From Terriglobia bacterium (GTDB lineage Bacteria > Acidobacteriota > Terriglobia > Terriglobales > Acidobacteriaceae): a stretch of 39,255 nucleotides of DNA. The notes below the pieces were generated by a model. The model saw nothing but the letters and a program-made list of their open reading frames with translations. It ran no database searches and was not told the origin of the DNA. Below, one piece after another: positions 28,167 to 36,804 of the stretch (positions within the stretch are counted from its first letter, which is position 1; every line of letters begins with the position of its first letter). A program made the translations under genes and the position numbers. Location: contig JAJPHW010000080.1 of the NCBI GenBank assembly GCA_021325035.1, positions 1 to 39,255 of the forward strand, given 5' to 3'.

Positions 28167-28517
28167 ATGAAATCGACAAGCAGCCCGCAAGTTCGCGGAG
28201 TGGACGTAGATTCACAATCGCGATGCGCTCACTATCATCTGCCCATGGACGTAGTTGCCATCAAGATGAAATGTTGCGGAATCTATTACGCTTGTAAAGA
28301 GTGTCATGATGCACTCGCCGATCATGACATCCTCGTCTGGCCTCGCAAAGAATGGGACGAGAAGGCAATCCTCTGCGGCGTCTGTGGCCACGAACTAACC
28401 ATCCGCGAGTATATGCAGAGCGAAAACTCCTGCCCGGCATGCACCGCAAATTTCAACCCCGGCTGCCGCAATCATTACCATTATTATTTCGAGGCTGATA
28501 TGGCAAAACACTCATGA
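28167..28517 (+). CDS. CHY-type zinc-finger protein
   Basis: The 116-residue protein is a CHY zinc-finger domain (about residues 8-110): RCAHYHLPMDVVAIKMKCCGIYYACKECHDALADH gives the CxHY, CC and CxxCH ligands, followed by ILCGVCGHELTIREYM and SCPACTANFNPGC, with a final HYHYYF. About nine Cys/His positions fit three zinc ions. In eukaryotes the fold occurs in ubiquitin ligases and in the mitochondrial protein Hot13, but the bacterial role is unknown. The ATG of the transporter gene overlaps its TGA (ATGA at 28514-28517), so the two are coupled. Confidence 0.9.
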   Translation: MKSTSSPQVRGVDVDSQSRCAHYHLPMDVVAIKMKCCGIYYACKECHDALADHDILVWPRKEWDEKAILCGVCGHELTIREYMQSENSCPACTANFNPGCRNHYHYYFEADMAKHS

Positions 28518-29758
28518 CGCGATTTACCGGTATTCTCGGCATCATCGTCATCATGGCGCTAGCGTATGTTTTTTCTGCGAACCGGAGGGCCATCCGGCCG
28601 AAGACCGTCTTTTGGGGTCTGGGGTTGCAAGTCGCTTTCGCGATTTTCGTATTGAAAGTTAGCGCTGGGCGTGTCCTGTTTCAAAAAGCCGGGGATCTCG
28701 TGACCCGCTTATTGAGCTATGGCTTCGCAGGTTCAGAATTCGTCTTCGGCGATCTGGGCAAGCAAGGTTCCCGCTTTGGTTTTTATTTTGCGTTTCAGGT
28801 TTTACCCATTGTCATTTTCATTGCCGCGTTTTTCGCAGTTCTTTATCACTACGGAATCATGCAATTTGTCGTTCGGCAGGCTGCCCGCGTGATGACTCGT
28901 TTCATGGGAACCAGCGGCGCTGAATCCCTCAACGTTGCCGCCAGTATTTTTATGGGGCAAACCGAAGCTCCCTTGACTATCCGCCCATTTCTGCCGGATA
29001 TGACCCAATCCGAACTCATGACAGTCATGACCAGCGGCATGGCCCACGTCTCCGGCGCAATCATGACGGCCTATATCGCTTTCGGTATTGACGCCAAACA
29101 TTTGCTCGCGGCCGTCATCATGACTGCACCCGGGACTATTCTTATTTCCAAAATGCTCGTCCCCGAAACCGGACATCCTAAAACCGCGGGCCGCGTCATT
29201 ATGAGCGAAGAGGAAGTTGCTGCAGAAAAAAGTGAGAACCTTCTCGGAGCCATTGCGCGCGGCACCACCGATGGTCTGCATCTCGCGCTCAACATCGCTG
29301 CCATGTTGATCTCATTTCTCGCACTAGTTGCCTTGGCAAATGGCATTCTCGGCGGGATACATAACTTTCTTGCAAATCATGGCGCTGCATGGTTCCCAAG
29401 CAGCCTGCAAACGATCTTCGGAGCTTTGTTCGCCCCCGTTGCCTGGTTAATCGGAATTCCGTGGCGCGATTGTCCCATCATCGGAAATCTATTGGGTACG
29501 CGAATGGTACTCAATGAGTTGGTGGCGTTTTCCATGCTGGCGCCGCAGCGTGCGTTACTCGATCCGCGATCCTACACCATCGCGACCTTTGCGCTTTGCG
29601 GCTTCGCCAATCTCGGTTCGATCGGAGTTCAAATTGGCGGCATCGGCGCACTGGCTCCTAACAAACGCGGCGAACTTGCCCGTTTGGGTTTTCGCGCCAT
29701 GCTTGCCGGTACCATGGCCAACTTAATGTCCGCCGCCATCGCCGGACTTTTGTATTAA
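28514..29758 (+). CDS. Concentrative nucleoside transporter (NupC/CNT family)
   Basis: The 414-residue membrane protein moves nucleosides with protons or sodium. CNT signatures include the GTSGAESLNVAASIFMGQTEAPLTIRPFLP region near 134-163, where GQTEAPL contacts the base, followed by MTSGMAHVSGAIMTAYIAFGI, and the later NELVAFSML near 334 with FANLGSIGVQIGGIGALAP near 371-389. About ten hydrophobic segments are present. It is translated from an ATGA overlap with the CHY zinc-finger gene, an unusual pairing. Purine salvage by Hpt elsewhere in the window could use imported nucleosides after phosphorolysis, which is inference. Confidence 0.93.
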   Translation: MTRFTGILGIIVIMALAYVFSANRRAIRPKTVFWGLGLQVAFAIFVLKVSAGRVLFQKAGDLVTRLLSYGFAGSEFVFGDLGKQGSRFGFYFAFQVLPIVIFIAAFFAVLYHYGIMQFVVRQAARVMTRFMGTSGAESLNVAASIFMGQTEAPLTIRPFLPDMTQSELMTVMTSGMAHVSGAIMTAYIAFGIDAKHLLAAVIMTAPGTILISKMLVPETGHPKTAGRVIMSEEEVAAEKSENLLGAIARGTTDGLHLALNIAAMLISFLALVALANGILGGIHNFLANHGAAWFPSSLQTIFGALFAPVAWLIGIPWRDCPIIGNLLGTRMVLNELVAFSMLAPQRALLDPRSYTIATFALCGFANLGSIGVQIGGIGALAPNKRGELARLGFRAMLAGTMANLMSAAIAGLLY

Positions 29759-29801
29759 GTCATCAGAGATACACCCTTCTGTGCCCTTCCCCACCCCTCC
29801 G

Positions 29802-29817
29802 TGTGATCTCCATCACA
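29802..29817. promoter_or_regulatory. Crp/Fnr-family operator palindrome upstream of the ba3 oxidase operon
   Basis: TGTGA-TCTCCA-TCACA is a perfect 5-base inverted repeat at the spacing of Crp/Fnr-family sites (E. coli CRP consensus TGTGA-N6-TCACA). It lies 69 bases before the first start codon of the operon and about 50 bases before the inferred transcription start. Confidence 0.6.
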
Positions 29818-29825
29818 TATTGTTC

Positions 29826-29854
29826 TTGCCAAAATCTCCTAACCTACCGACAAT
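29826..29854 (+). promoter_or_regulatory. Sigma-70-like promoter of the ba3 oxidase operon
   Basis: TTGCCA (29826-29831) is five of six to the -35 consensus. It is followed by exactly 17 bases and GACAAT (29849-29854), four of six to the -10 consensus. Transcription would start near 29861, giving a leader of about 25 bases before the subunit IIa ATG. The Crp-type site is just upstream. Confidence 0.6.
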
Positions 29855-29886
29855 GAGCCGCATAAAAACTATGAAAGGTTCAATCT

Positions 29887-30021
29887 ATGGCAAGTGAACC
29901 GAAAAAAGATCATTTTGTCCCCAAAGGGGCCGTTGCGTTTTTTGCAATCATGCTTCTTAGTTTCGGCTTGATTTGGTTGGGGATCTATCTGCTGGCGCTG
30001 CACCGTCAGCTTAGCCTGTAA
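29887..30021 (+). CDS. ba3-type cytochrome c oxidase subunit IIa
   Basis: This short frame encodes 44 residues, MASEPKKDHFVPKGAVAFFA... to HRQLSL. A charged N-terminus, a single membrane helix (about 15-38) and a short C-terminal tail match subunit IIa (CbaD-type) of ba3 oxidases, which replaces the first helix missing from subunit II. It has a weak AAAGG site upstream and lies directly before subunits II and I in the expected gene order. The subunit II ATG follows 9 bases after its stop, with AGGAG between. Codon use and context make it a real gene in spite of its size. Confidence 0.88.
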   Translation: MASEPKKDHFVPKGAVAFFAIMLLSFGLIWLGIYLLALHRQLSL

Positions 30022-30030
30022 GGAGAAATA

Positions 30031-30816
30031 ATGGCATCCTCCACGCTTTCCAATCAAGAAGGCGTCAATCCGCTTGAGCGCCGCGTGCTCTGGGGAGCGA
30101 CCCTCTTCACGCTGATCACCATCGGCTTCATCGCCTACTCTGTCTGGGGACTTGGCGCCAGCGTTCCAACCTGCATGAACAACATGCCAGTCTTTAAACA
30201 CGGGGAAATCATCAGACACGACGGCAAGAATTACGAAATCCACTTTCTCGCGAAAATGTGGAAATTTGAACCATCGAAAGTCATCGTTCCCGTCGGCTCA
30301 ACCCTGGATGTCTCCGTTACCAGCAAAGACGTACAGCATGGCTTTCAAATCCTTGGTACAAACATCAATTTCATGGCATTGCCTTTCGTTCTCACTACCG
30401 GCCGCGTGCATTTCACCAAGCCCGGCATCTATCACATCGTTTGCCATGAATACTGCGGAGCAGCCCATCAAAACATGAACGCCATTATCGAAGTCAGCGA
30501 CAAGGTGGACGATATTTCCGCAGATGGGTTGCCCACGCTCGATGCAGGGCGCAGCCTAGCCGATGCCAAAGGCTGTCTCGCTTGCCATAGTACGGACGGG
30601 ACGACTGGAATCGGTCCAAGCTTCAAAGGAATCTGGGGACAGACTGCTCAACTGATTGATGGCAGCACTCGTACGGTAGATGCTGCGTTCGTGCACAATA
30701 TGATTCTTCATCCCGACGCCAATGCTATTAAAGGCTTTGACCCCGTCATGCCGGTGGTCGCAATGAGCGACGACGAAATCGAACAACTCACCGAATACAT
30801 CAAGGAGTTGCAATGA
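30031..30816 (+). CDS. ba3-type cytochrome c oxidase subunit II with fused cytochrome c
   Basis: The 261-residue protein has one N-terminal membrane helix (about 18-42), a cupredoxin domain (about 60-160) and a C-terminal cytochrome c domain (about 172-261). CuA ligands are H103, C138, E140 (carbonyl), C142, H146 and M149 in CHEYCGAAHQNM. The heme c site is CLACH at 182-186 with methionine M240 or M245 as sixth ligand. Classical Thermus ba3 subunit II lacks the heme domain, so this enzyme can accept electrons through an attached c heme, as in caa3-like arrangements. Its stop overlaps the subunit I ATG by four bases. AGGAG precedes its start. Confidence 0.95.
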   Translation: MASSTLSNQEGVNPLERRVLWGATLFTLITIGFIAYSVWGLGASVPTCMNNMPVFKHGEIIRHDGKNYEIHFLAKMWKFEPSKVIVPVGSTLDVSVTSKDVQHGFQILGTNINFMALPFVLTTGRVHFTKPGIYHIVCHEYCGAAHQNMNAIIEVSDKVDDISADGLPTLDAGRSLADAKGCLACHSTDGTTGIGPSFKGIWGQTAQLIDGSTRTVDAAFVHNMILHPDANAIKGFDPVMPVVAMSDDEIEQLTEYIKELQ

Positions 30817-32522
30817 GCTACCCCGCGCGCGCTCAACAAATGCAACCGGCACTTCGCATCATCATACTTACCGAGCTGCTTGTGCCGCTCACGTTGCTCG
30901 TCTTCGGCGCTTATCATGGCGTACTCCAGGTCCTCTATCGCGCCGGAATCATTCGCGCAACTTCATTTGCAGGAATTGATTACTATCAAGGCCTCACCGC
31001 ACATGGCGTTATTAACGCCATCGTTCTCACCACGCTTTTCGCCGTCGCTCTCGGCAATGCGCTGGTCACACAAGAGCTTGAGTCTCCGCTCTCCATTTTT
31101 GGTGCCGGACTCTCGCTCGCCCTGATGCTGCTTGGCGCGGTCATGGCCGCGGCCATGATCTTCACCGGCCATGCGACCGTACTCTACACGTTCTACCCGC
31201 CGCTCAAAGCCCATCCCATTTTTTATCTGGGACTTGCTCTCTTCATCGTGGGTTCATGGGTCGCTTTCTATACTTGGATTCCGGTTTACCTGCGCTGGCG
31301 CAAGAACAATCGTGATCAAAAAACTCCGTTGGCTGTTGTTGGCATGTTTGCCACTTTCATCGTCTGGCAAATGTGCACGATTCCCGTCGCTTATGAAGTG
31401 TTGGTGATGTTGCTTCCCTGGTCGCTCGGCTGGACGCCTGGCGTCAACGTGGTCCTCGCCCGCACGCTCTTCTGGTTTTTCGGTCATCCCCTGGTCTATT
31501 TCTGGCTGCTGCCCATTTATGTTCTCTACTACACCATGCTGCCACGTCTTGCCGGAGGTAAGCTCTACAGCGACTTCGCCGGGCGTCTGAGCTTCATGGC
31601 TTTTATTGTTCTCTCTTGTCCGCTCGGACTGCATCACCAATTTGCAGATCCGGGAATCTCTGCGACATGGAAAGGGATTCAAACCGTACTCACCCTGTTT
31701 GTCGCCATTCCCAGCATGTTGACCGCATTCACGCTCGCAGCATCTATGGAATACGGCGCTCGCCAGCGCGGCGGCACCGGTCTTTTCGGATGGTGGAAGG
31801 CTCTTCCGTACTTCAGCCGCGAAAATTGGCTCTTTTCTTATCTTTTCGTTGGGCTTGTCATCTTTCTCTTCGGCGGCGTCACCGGTATCATCAACGCCTC
31901 CTACAATCTCGACAACATCGTGCACAATACCGCGTGGCTTCCCGCGCACTTCCACTTGACCGTCGGCGGTCCTGTCTTTCTTGGAATCCTAGGAATGAGT
32001 TTGTTTCTAATCAGCGGATTGCTGAATAAACCTGTCGGCGATCTCTCGACCGCGGTCGCAATTCCCTATCTCTGGATGATTGGCACTTTCACATTTTCGA
32101 CCGGGCTCTTCATTGGCGGACTGCGCGGCGAGCCCCGCCGCACCAACATGGGCCTTACATATTTAAATCCGGCTTCGCCGAGTTATCGTCCAGATTGGTG
32201 GACCAGCACTCACATAGGCGCGATCGGTGGGGTCATCATGAGCCTCGCCATCTTTCTGTATTTCGTTGTGCTTATTCGCACCTTGCTCGCACCGCGTGTC
32301 GAAAGCTCAGAACCATTCATCATTCCGCTTAGCGAGCCTTATCACGATGAGAATGTGCGCTCAGTTCGAAATTTCACTCCCTGGGTTGTCGTTGCCTGCG
32401 TACTCTGCATTGCTGCCTACTACATGCCGCTTCGCGATATCGTTCGCAGCAATTATCCAAGTGCGCCAGCTTATAGTCCGGCAAGCGCTGCTCCGCTGAC
32501 ACAATCCACAAACATTCCATAA
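30813..32522 (+). CDS. ba3-type cytochrome c oxidase subunit I
   Basis: This 569-residue, roughly 13-helix membrane protein is the proton-pumping heme-copper subunit of the B family. Ligands are visible: H in GLTAHGVINA (low-spin heme, about 66), the CuB site H-x3-Y cross-link in FGHPLVYFWLLP (about 226-237), HH in GLHHQFADPG (about 275-276), and the PAHFHLTVGG pair (about 377-379) for the high-spin and low-spin hemes. Loss of the K-channel glutamate is normal for B-type enzymes. Translation starts in the subunit II stop (ATGA). The heme A precursor could come from CtaA at 5521. A GC-rich palindrome follows the stop. Confidence 0.95.
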   Translation: MSYPARAQQMQPALRIIILTELLVPLTLLVFGAYHGVLQVLYRAGIIRATSFAGIDYYQGLTAHGVINAIVLTTLFAVALGNALVTQELESPLSIFGAGLSLALMLLGAVMAAAMIFTGHATVLYTFYPPLKAHPIFYLGLALFIVGSWVAFYTWIPVYLRWRKNNRDQKTPLAVVGMFATFIVWQMCTIPVAYEVLVMLLPWSLGWTPGVNVVLARTLFWFFGHPLVYFWLLPIYVLYYTMLPRLAGGKLYSDFAGRLSFMAFIVLSCPLGLHHQFADPGISATWKGIQTVLTLFVAIPSMLTAFTLAASMEYGARQRGGTGLFGWWKALPYFSRENWLFSYLFVGLVIFLFGGVTGIINASYNLDNIVHNTAWLPAHFHLTVGGPVFLGILGMSLFLISGLLNKPVGDLSTAVAIPYLWMIGTFTFSTGLFIGGLRGEPRRTNMGLTYLNPASPSYRPDWWTSTHIGAIGGVIMSLAIFLYFVVLIRTLLAPRVESSEPFIIPLSEPYHDENVRSVRNFTPWVVVACVLCIAAYYMPLRDIVRSNYPSAPAYSPASAAPLTQSTNIP

Positions 32523-36086: not shown

Positions 36087-36383
36087 TTATTCACGATAAG
36101 CCAGCCAACTCAATAAGCGGTCTTGGTTACGCTCCAGGGGAATAAAGCGCGTGCCGTCCGGGGCAATCTCCGTCGCTGTCAAAGCCGAAATAGTCGTTAC
36201 TGTTTTGTCTTCGCTCAAATGCAGCGTCATCTTCTCCGAACACGCCGGGCACAGCCAAAAATACTCCACTTGCCGCTTATATTCTCCGGTTTGCACCTGG
36301 CCGTTCTCGACGCGGAAAAGCTTGCCTTCATCCAAATACCGGAAAATGGATGAACAGATCGGATTTGCACATTTTGCCAACAT
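36087..36383 (-). CDS. Small zinc-ribbon-like protein of unknown function
   Basis: From the ATG at 36383 the product is 98 residues (MLAKCANPICSSIFRYLDEG...). The frame extends 29 codons further to 36470, but that part overlaps the DUF2934 gene and looks like noise. A C-x4-C pair (CANPIC) and a C-x2-C pair (CPAC near 45) should bind zinc. The C-terminal half includes TLHLSEDKTVTTI. I do not recognise a functional family, though small proteins with this opening occur commonly in Acidobacteriota. It could be a regulatory or structural zinc protein. Confidence 0.7.
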   Translation of the reverse strand: MLAKCANPICSSIFRYLDEGKLFRVENGQVQTGEYKRQVEYFWLCPACSEKMTLHLSEDKTVTTISALTATEIAPDGTRFIPLERNQDRLLSWLAYRE

Positions 36384-36426
36384 CGCGATACACCTCATAC
36401 GTCCGAAACCAAAATTCGTATTTTCG

Positions 36427-36642
36427 TTAATGCACCGTGAGCGCCATTGGTTTAACACAATGAAAAACATGACGACTTAATATTTCCGCTTCGGCTTTGA
36501 GCCAGTCATCGAGCGCTCCATCACAATGCCTTCCCCGCTCTTCCCATATTTGATACGCCCGATGTCGAATTTCTTCTTCTACGCCCGAAGACAGATGACA
36601 TGCGTGGCTGACAATTTCACGGGAAATTTCGTGCGTATTCAT
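36427..36642 (-). CDS. DUF2934 protein
   Basis: The start at ATG 36642 is chosen because GGAGG precedes it at the right spacing, giving 71 residues. The domain is recognised from IRHRAYQIWEERGRHCDGALDDWLKAEAE near 25-53, the hallmark of DUF2934: an R-A-Y-x-I/L-W-x-x-R-G box and a D-W-L-x-A-E box. The function of the family is unknown. The proteins are frequent in Acidobacteriota and other soil bacteria. It is one of four small minus-strand genes between 36087 and 37641. Confidence 0.85.
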   Translation of the reverse strand: MNTHEISREIVSHACHLSSGVEEEIRHRAYQIWEERGRHCDGALDDWLKAEAEILSRHVFHCVKPMALTVH

Positions 36643-36804
36643 AGAAACCTCCACAGCTGAATTATTCGCTCAAGCGGCATTGTTGTAAGTGACTGCCGTC
36701 ACGCTCCGGTGTGCGCTGAGCCCGGCCTTACATATCCTCCGTCATTGGCGTATATCTTGGGCCGTCCGAAGAAAGCGCACGATTCCAAATATCAGATTGG
36801 ATTT

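Follow-up and report, generated by a model that had tools for sequence, protein, structure and literature searches.

Upstream of the genes for a ba3-type oxidase in a Terriglobia bacterium lies a palindrome, TGTGATCTCCATCACA, which is well supported by its sequence as a putative operator of the Crp/Fnr family. It is probably the stronger of the two sites in a tandem operator through which a redox- or oxygen-sensing Crp/Fnr-type regulator of the host (P0005 or its paralogue P0006) would activate the oxidase. Confidence in this reading is fair rather than high, because half of the oxidase loci from the same bacterial family are without the site and because the partner site is degenerate. The window, by which is meant the whole stretch of DNA analyzed here (39,255 nucleotides), is an entire contig (C8) from a draft genome of 3.86 Mb, and its relevant features, together with a related operator found elsewhere in the host, are collected in Table 1.

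Table 1. Positions of the operator sites, the neighboring genes and a related host operator
Feature	Position	Strand	Basis or remark
Nucleoside-transporter gene	28514-29758		Pfam
In-register partner site TGTGCCCTTCCCCACC, degenerate, 22 bp farther upstream	29780-29795		Pair spans 29780-29817
Strong Crp/Fnr-type site TGTGATCTCCATCACA, proximal member of the pair	29802-29817	none	Pattern scan, relatives
Promoter-like TTGCCA-N17-GACAAT	29826-29854	+	Not above chance
Subunit IIa of ba3-type oxidase (44 aa)	29887-30021	+	Structure-chain matches
Subunit II, CuA domain fused to C-terminal cytochrome c domain	30031-30816	+	Pfam, structure matches
Subunit I (catalytic) of ba3-type oxidase	30813-32522	+	Pfam, structure matches
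Tandem operator on another host contig (L154; G000:C128)	1479-1514 of L154		0 mismatches; CxxCH protein (457 aa) from 1584 onward

The palindrome ahead of the oxidase genes

An earlier note on this DNA had placed a perfect TGTGA-N6-TCACA before the ba3 oxidase operon, and this was confirmed: inverted 5-bp half-sites of the Crp/Fnr type, 6 bp apart and upstream of a gene, are found at 29802-29817, and a pattern scan identifies them as the sole perfect copy in the window. The site is contained in the 128-base gap that separates the nucleoside-transporter gene from the gene for subunit IIa. At up to two mismatches, the same pattern occurs 19 times in the window; shuffled sequences average 14.05, and 9 in 100 of them have at least as many. 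Looser matches to a single site therefore mean little.

On a genome-wide scale, the perfection of a single palindrome is near chance. The genome search that the earlier note had proposed does return the palindrome, at five perfect places (none for the mirrored control), yet simple arithmetic predicts about 3.7 (3,864,199/4^10). The perfect single palindrome was rejected as a genome-wide marker, the other four places being, on our reading, unrelated to respiration: one is within a long ORF, which we take to be FtsX-like, and the remaining three precede or adjoin genes read as non-respiratory. A looser single-site form, GTGAYNNNNRTCAC, was also set aside as unable to define a regulon alone, with 21 places in the genome against 7 for the mirrored control and at least half of them intragenic. 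Support for TGTGATCTCCATCACA comes from its position, its relatives and its tandem partner.

Any such palindrome folds, and this one would form a stem of 7 pairs closed by a loop of 4 bases (-6.1 kcal/mol, z -2.57) 43 bases past the stop codon of the nucleoside-transporter gene, where it might serve as the terminator of that gene and not as an operator at all. We consider this scarcely credible, since the stem has few G-C pairs and a poor T run, a terminator scan does not find the hairpin, and two related oxidase loci described below (L015 and L138) keep the half-sites and not the loop.

A partner site and a 22-bp tandem operator

The partner site TGTGCCCTTCCCCACC was absent from the earlier note, as were the clade-wide tandem operator and the cysteines of the regulator. 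It starts with TGTGC, as do several partners near homologues of the regulator. The two sites together match the pattern GTG-N7-TCAC-N8-GTG-N7-TCAC at 29781-29816 with one mismatch of 14; the arrangement seen across the clade, in which two site centers are 22 bp apart, is thus present in the window with a degenerate second site. The rest of the window contains no tandem fit below three mismatches, and the matches at up to three mismatches number 7 over both strands against a shuffle mean of 2.85, a count that 4 of 100 shuffles reach. Among shuffled upstream regions, none of 1980 came to one tandem mismatch, and none of 93 oxidase loci from outside the family came to two or better.

Within the family, the tandem pattern is present in 68 of 100 genomes, with 193 forward matches and 189 reverse ones, where the mirrored control yields 4 of each kind. 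When two full GTGA-N6-TCAC sites were allowed a free gap of 1-30 bases, matches were found in 50 of 100 genomes and the mirrored control gave 0 in every row; the spacing between centers was exactly 22 bp in 56 of the 75 pairs listed, from 116 pairs in all.

A palindrome count was made in the non-coding DNA around 30 homologues of P0005, with one locus per genome and the host's own genome included, by taking every 5-mer as X-N6-revcomp(X). TGTGA-N6-TCACA ranks first, being present at 17 of the 30 loci, while unrelated 5-mers reach 2. The further 5-mers that occur at more than two loci, TCACA (6), TCACG (4), TCACC (3) and AGTGA (3), seem to belong to this arrangement too, and the appearance of TCACA-N6-TGTGA among the top palindromes suggests that sites stand next to each other. 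In the 500 bases that precede P0005 homologues, the commonest spacing between sites at up to two mismatches is 22 bp, with 9 pairs; 48 and 70 bp follow with 3 pairs each.

Elsewhere in the window, a further GTGA-N6-TCAC core (GTGACTGCCGTCAC) resides at 36689-36702, in the gap upstream of a minus-strand ORF (36087-36470), where the tandem fit is poor (3 mismatches). This ORF has a relative in another genome (L277 of G090), 33% identical, that begins 72 bases from a tandem operator.

The oxidase and its distribution

The operon that had been assigned to subunits IIa, II and I of a ba3-type oxidase is genuine, as judged by matches to solved structures. Subunit I matches 7deg_A (E 1.7e-177) and 1ehk_A (E 1.2e-111), subunit II has its best match among the solved ba3 oxidases 7deg and 1ehk, and subunit IIa matches the IIa chains of both weakly (E 0.004-0.009). 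All three subunits are therefore homologous to those of the solved enzymes, which come from Aquifex/Thermus; the difference lies in subunit II, which in the window is fused at its C-terminus to a cytochrome c domain (PF00034, 1w2l) that the earlier note did not record. Subunit II also aligns over its full length with sequences at L138, the closest same-family relative, and at Oligoflexia loci.

Within the family, the ba3 oxidase is rare and patchy. Matches to subunit I at E ≤ 1e-60 occur in 6 of 398 family genomes, and matches at E ≤ 1e-80 occur in 15 of 396 genomes sampled from the phylum. A contig search, which may omit records very near the host's own genome, confirmed 323 relatives, the best 80 of which include records from Kapaibacteria, Ignavibacteria, Oligoflexia and Chitinophagaceae at 50-62% identity. 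The oxidase was likely gained horizontally; a plasmid search with the DNA upstream of the oxidase gave no match. The available part of a survey of 24 acidobacterial genomes describes oxidases of type A, type C and bd, and none of type B (PMC5900883).

Conservation of the site at oxidase loci

Upstream of the oxidase, GTGA-N6-TCAC is found at 5 of 99 loci (100 were collected, and L093, which lacks an upstream anchor, was dropped), where shuffling gives 0.36 on average and never more than 2. Outside the family, the count is 2 of 93. The earlier note had held that absence of the palindrome before orthologous operons would refute it, and here the outcome is divided: three of the six same-family loci have the site, namely the window, L138 (oxidase 73% identical, site CGTGATGGGCATCACC) and L015 (about 41%, perfect site TGTGACGTTCATCACA), and the other three (L016, L139 and L140) are without GTGA-N6-TCAC upstream. 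Fnr-type TTGAT sites at up to one mismatch precede none of the six oxidases. Nor does the tandem pattern appear with better than 3 mismatches at the five same-family loci other than the window; at L138, a site with 2 mismatches stands 21 bp from the palindrome, and the contig of L015 ends 14 bases before its site, so that any upstream partner is out of view. An apparent tRNA upstream of the L138 oxidase was rejected, as ARAGORN finds none there.

Because two divergent oxidase lineages have the operator and most foreign homologues do not, the operator appears to be a property of the host's regulator and not of the oxidase. The same distribution bears on whether the palindrome is simply a functionless product of chance. 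Its near-expected number of perfect copies in the genome (5 against about 3.7) and its absence from three of six same-family oxidase loci are what chance would give, but its position, its in-register partner, its occurrence in two divergent oxidase lineages of one family and the clade-wide tandem pattern are not, and we judge a chance origin to be very improbable.

Candidate regulators

The earlier note was correct that no Crp/Fnr gene lies in the window: the genome gives eight matches to PF13545 (four over the cut-off), all on other contigs. Among the four host proteins over the HTH_Crp_2 cut-off, P0005 (C21) and P0006 (C91) have the recognition helix SRETV[S/T]R and a C-x2-C-x8-C motif with a further cysteine, and the other two (C136 and C86) have TTRSRV[N/S] helices. 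In an alignment of 31 rows comprising P0005, its homologues and P0006, from which L174, L186 and L191 were dropped because extrapolated starts left their translations empty or one residue long, the [ST]RETV[ST]R helix and four cysteines are found together in 28 of 28 usable rows.

In the available part of PMC1274295, Arg180 and Glu181 of the helix correlate with half-site positions G3 and A6; by this rule the genome encodes two regulators that match TGTGA, P0005 and P0006. Their SRETV[S/T]R helices lend good support to the earlier note's reading of the half-sites as of the CRP or HcpR kind and not of the TTGAT kind.

Of 100 family genomes, 87 encode homologues of P0005 (E ≤ 1e-15), often more than one, and such homologues are present in all five other oxidase genomes, with or without the site. 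The 500 bases immediately upstream of the P0005 gene (L167) contain no site at up to two mismatches, and likewise none is found immediately upstream of P0006; the tandem site associated with P0005 sits ahead of usp, two genes upstream. A plasmid search for relatives of the regulator returned 491 records, none of them reaching 60% identity. Within L163 1134-5052 (G000:C91), P0006 adjoins an ORF on the same strand that, as we read it, resembles a GAF-domain sigma-54 activator.

Comparison with known regulators

The Crp of Escherichia coli, with its TGTGA/TCACA consensus and its Arg-Glu-x3-Arg helix positions, resembles the present system in both half-sites and recognition helix. The regulators described here differ from a cAMP-dependent Crp in carrying N-terminal cysteines, and in the alignment P0005 has Leu and Tyr where mycobacterial Crp has Glu and Arg, which contact cAMP. 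These comparisons bear on whether a real operator might have another reader, either a cAMP-bound Crp or one of the TTRSRV[N/S] proteins, which we consider improbable. The genome does encode four proteins over the HTH_Crp_2 cut-off and the operator sequence does resemble the E. coli consensus, but the TTRSRV[N/S] helices are without the Glu that goes with A6, the Glu and Arg that contact cAMP are not conserved in P0005, and the L008 and L009 loci are without any site at up to one mismatch.

Likeness to Fnr consists in the Crp/Fnr fold, the four conserved cysteines and the redox- or stress-type genes nearby. Fnr, however, reads TTGAT, whereas the host helix has Arg at position 180 and TGTGA is the top palindrome around the homologues. 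E. coli Fnr has its cysteines at C20, C23, C29 and C122. The regulators here have C-x2-C-x8-C with the fourth cysteine in an FVLC-G motif, so that, although four cysteines are present in every usable row, both their spacing and the place of the fourth differ from those of the cysteines that hold the Fe-S cluster in Fnr.

The HcpR sites of Desulfovibrio, given as wTGTGAnnnnnnTCACAw in the available part of PMC1274295, share their half-sites and spacing with the window, and the regulator shares Arg180/Glu181; the predicted regulons often contain hemerythrin-, ferredoxin- or cytochrome c-like genes. In contrast to the P0005/P0006 group, HcpR is described there as having no Fnr-type cysteine motif, and the same part of that paper makes no mention of sites paired at 22 bp. 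HcpR also governs hcp, which is not among the 25 most frequent of the 76 Pfam families beside tandem sites.

Genes beside tandem operators

The neighborhood of the tandem pattern was surveyed at 108 distinct sites from 130 loci, a part of all the tandem places found. Nearly all of these sites are non-coding (104, with 4 intragenic), and a simple gene caller places the starts of 113 genes near them. By raw counts without a random-gene baseline, taken over the 25 most frequent of 76 Pfam families, these genes include cNMP_binding (12), Crp-type HTH (9), Usp (8), radical SAM (7), hemerythrin (5), TonB_C (4), OsmC (4), POR_N (3) and ScdA_N (2), as well as five cytochrome c families with 3 each, whose members may overlap, and the glycoside hydrolase 3 family (2).

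In the host, the 21 loci with GTGAYNNNNRTCAC were scanned, and tandem fits at up to two mismatches are found at three places. These are the window (1 mismatch); a gap on C21 between divergent usp genes, ahead of the gene run usp-adh-crp that ends in P0005 (at most 1 mismatch); and C128, where the fit has 0 mismatches on one strand and precedes a CxxCH protein. This last protein has no Pfam match, and its G044 relative, 75% identical across 324 residues, is likewise accompanied by a tandem operator, which marks the protein as a candidate conserved member of the regulon. Another usp gene, on C152, has a single GTGAT-N4-ATCAC 52 bases ahead of it.

Two further kinds of protein recur beside tandem operators. 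One is a small protein starting (M)LLAYRLVRLIE(T/S)H, seen at L203, L247, L290, L307 and L329. The other comprises radical-SAM proteins with GCNLRCIHCRATA or a close variant (L243, L257, L270, L288, L206, L215 and L218), which we take to resemble the radical-SAM enzymes of heme biosynthesis.

Promoter and direction of control

The earlier note had also read TTGCCA-N17-GACAAT as the promoter of the oxidase operon. The letters are present, yet a scan of 4.3 kb gives 2 matches against a shuffle mean of 3.6, and the assignment as a promoter is unsupported. The spacing drawn from it, with the site center about 51 bases before the transcript start and between the class I and class II positions, is not borne out, because that start rests on a promoter at chance level.

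With no promoter above chance to place the transcript start, it is conceivable that the operator is real and represses, its dimers overlapping or crowding the promoter and lowering the oxidase in one redox state. Several relatives have sites only 41-65 bases before the aligned start of the regulator, where a dimer could block polymerase. On the other side, the presence of usp, hemerythrin, PFOR and radical-SAM genes beside tandem sites suggests induction at low oxygen, and in Acidobacterium capsulatum, a species without an established tie to the tandem operator, several uspA homologues rise as oxygen drops from 10 to 0.1 umol/l, according to the available part of PMC11636273. Repression accordingly seems doubtful to us, and activation is the reading that we prefer.

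Discussion

The preferred reading may be set out as follows. The palindrome would be the strong member of a tandem pair, whose two dimer sites lie 22 bp apart, a distance of about two helical turns that would place both dimers on the same face of the DNA. The dimers would be those of a Crp/Fnr-family regulator whose gene lies on another contig; P0005 on C21 is the likeliest candidate, and its paralogue P0006 on C91 is a possible one. The recognition helix of this regulator appears to read TGTGA in the manner of Crp, and its four cysteines recall Fnr; this combination leads us to expect a sensor of oxygen, NO or redox state, which may work through an Fe-S cluster. The regulator's own usp-adh-crp gene run is probably under its control as well. 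As oxygen or redox state changes, the dimers would act on RNA polymerase, most likely as activators when oxygen falls, and in this way a patchily distributed ba3 oxidase may have been drawn into an existing redox or low-oxygen regulon.

A broader proposal, for which we see about even chances, is that the four-cysteine subfamily is specific to the clade and serves as the family's global oxygen or redox regulator, acting through paired operators at 22 bp and capturing rare oxidases. Such a regulator would combine Crp-like reading of DNA with Fnr-like cysteines, and would exist as several paralogues per genome in many species; oxidase operons would have been captured because a paired operator evolved upstream of them.

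The half-sites themselves are ordinary and known; what is unusual is their fixed pairing and the regulator subfamily. In the available text of the open-licence literature, which was the scope of the search to the exclusion of subscription papers, we found neither an operator nor a regulon of this kind described, and the words Crp and Fnr are absent from the main text of four papers on acidobacterial genomes or oxygen (PMC5900883, PMC8407424, PMC11636273 and PMC10564751). If the preferred reading is true, the paired operator would provide a searchable signature for the redox or low-oxygen regulon of a widespread bacterial family, together with a set of promoters on which to test it and a pair of candidate regulators; the window would also exemplify how an oxidase of patchy distribution comes under the control of its host.
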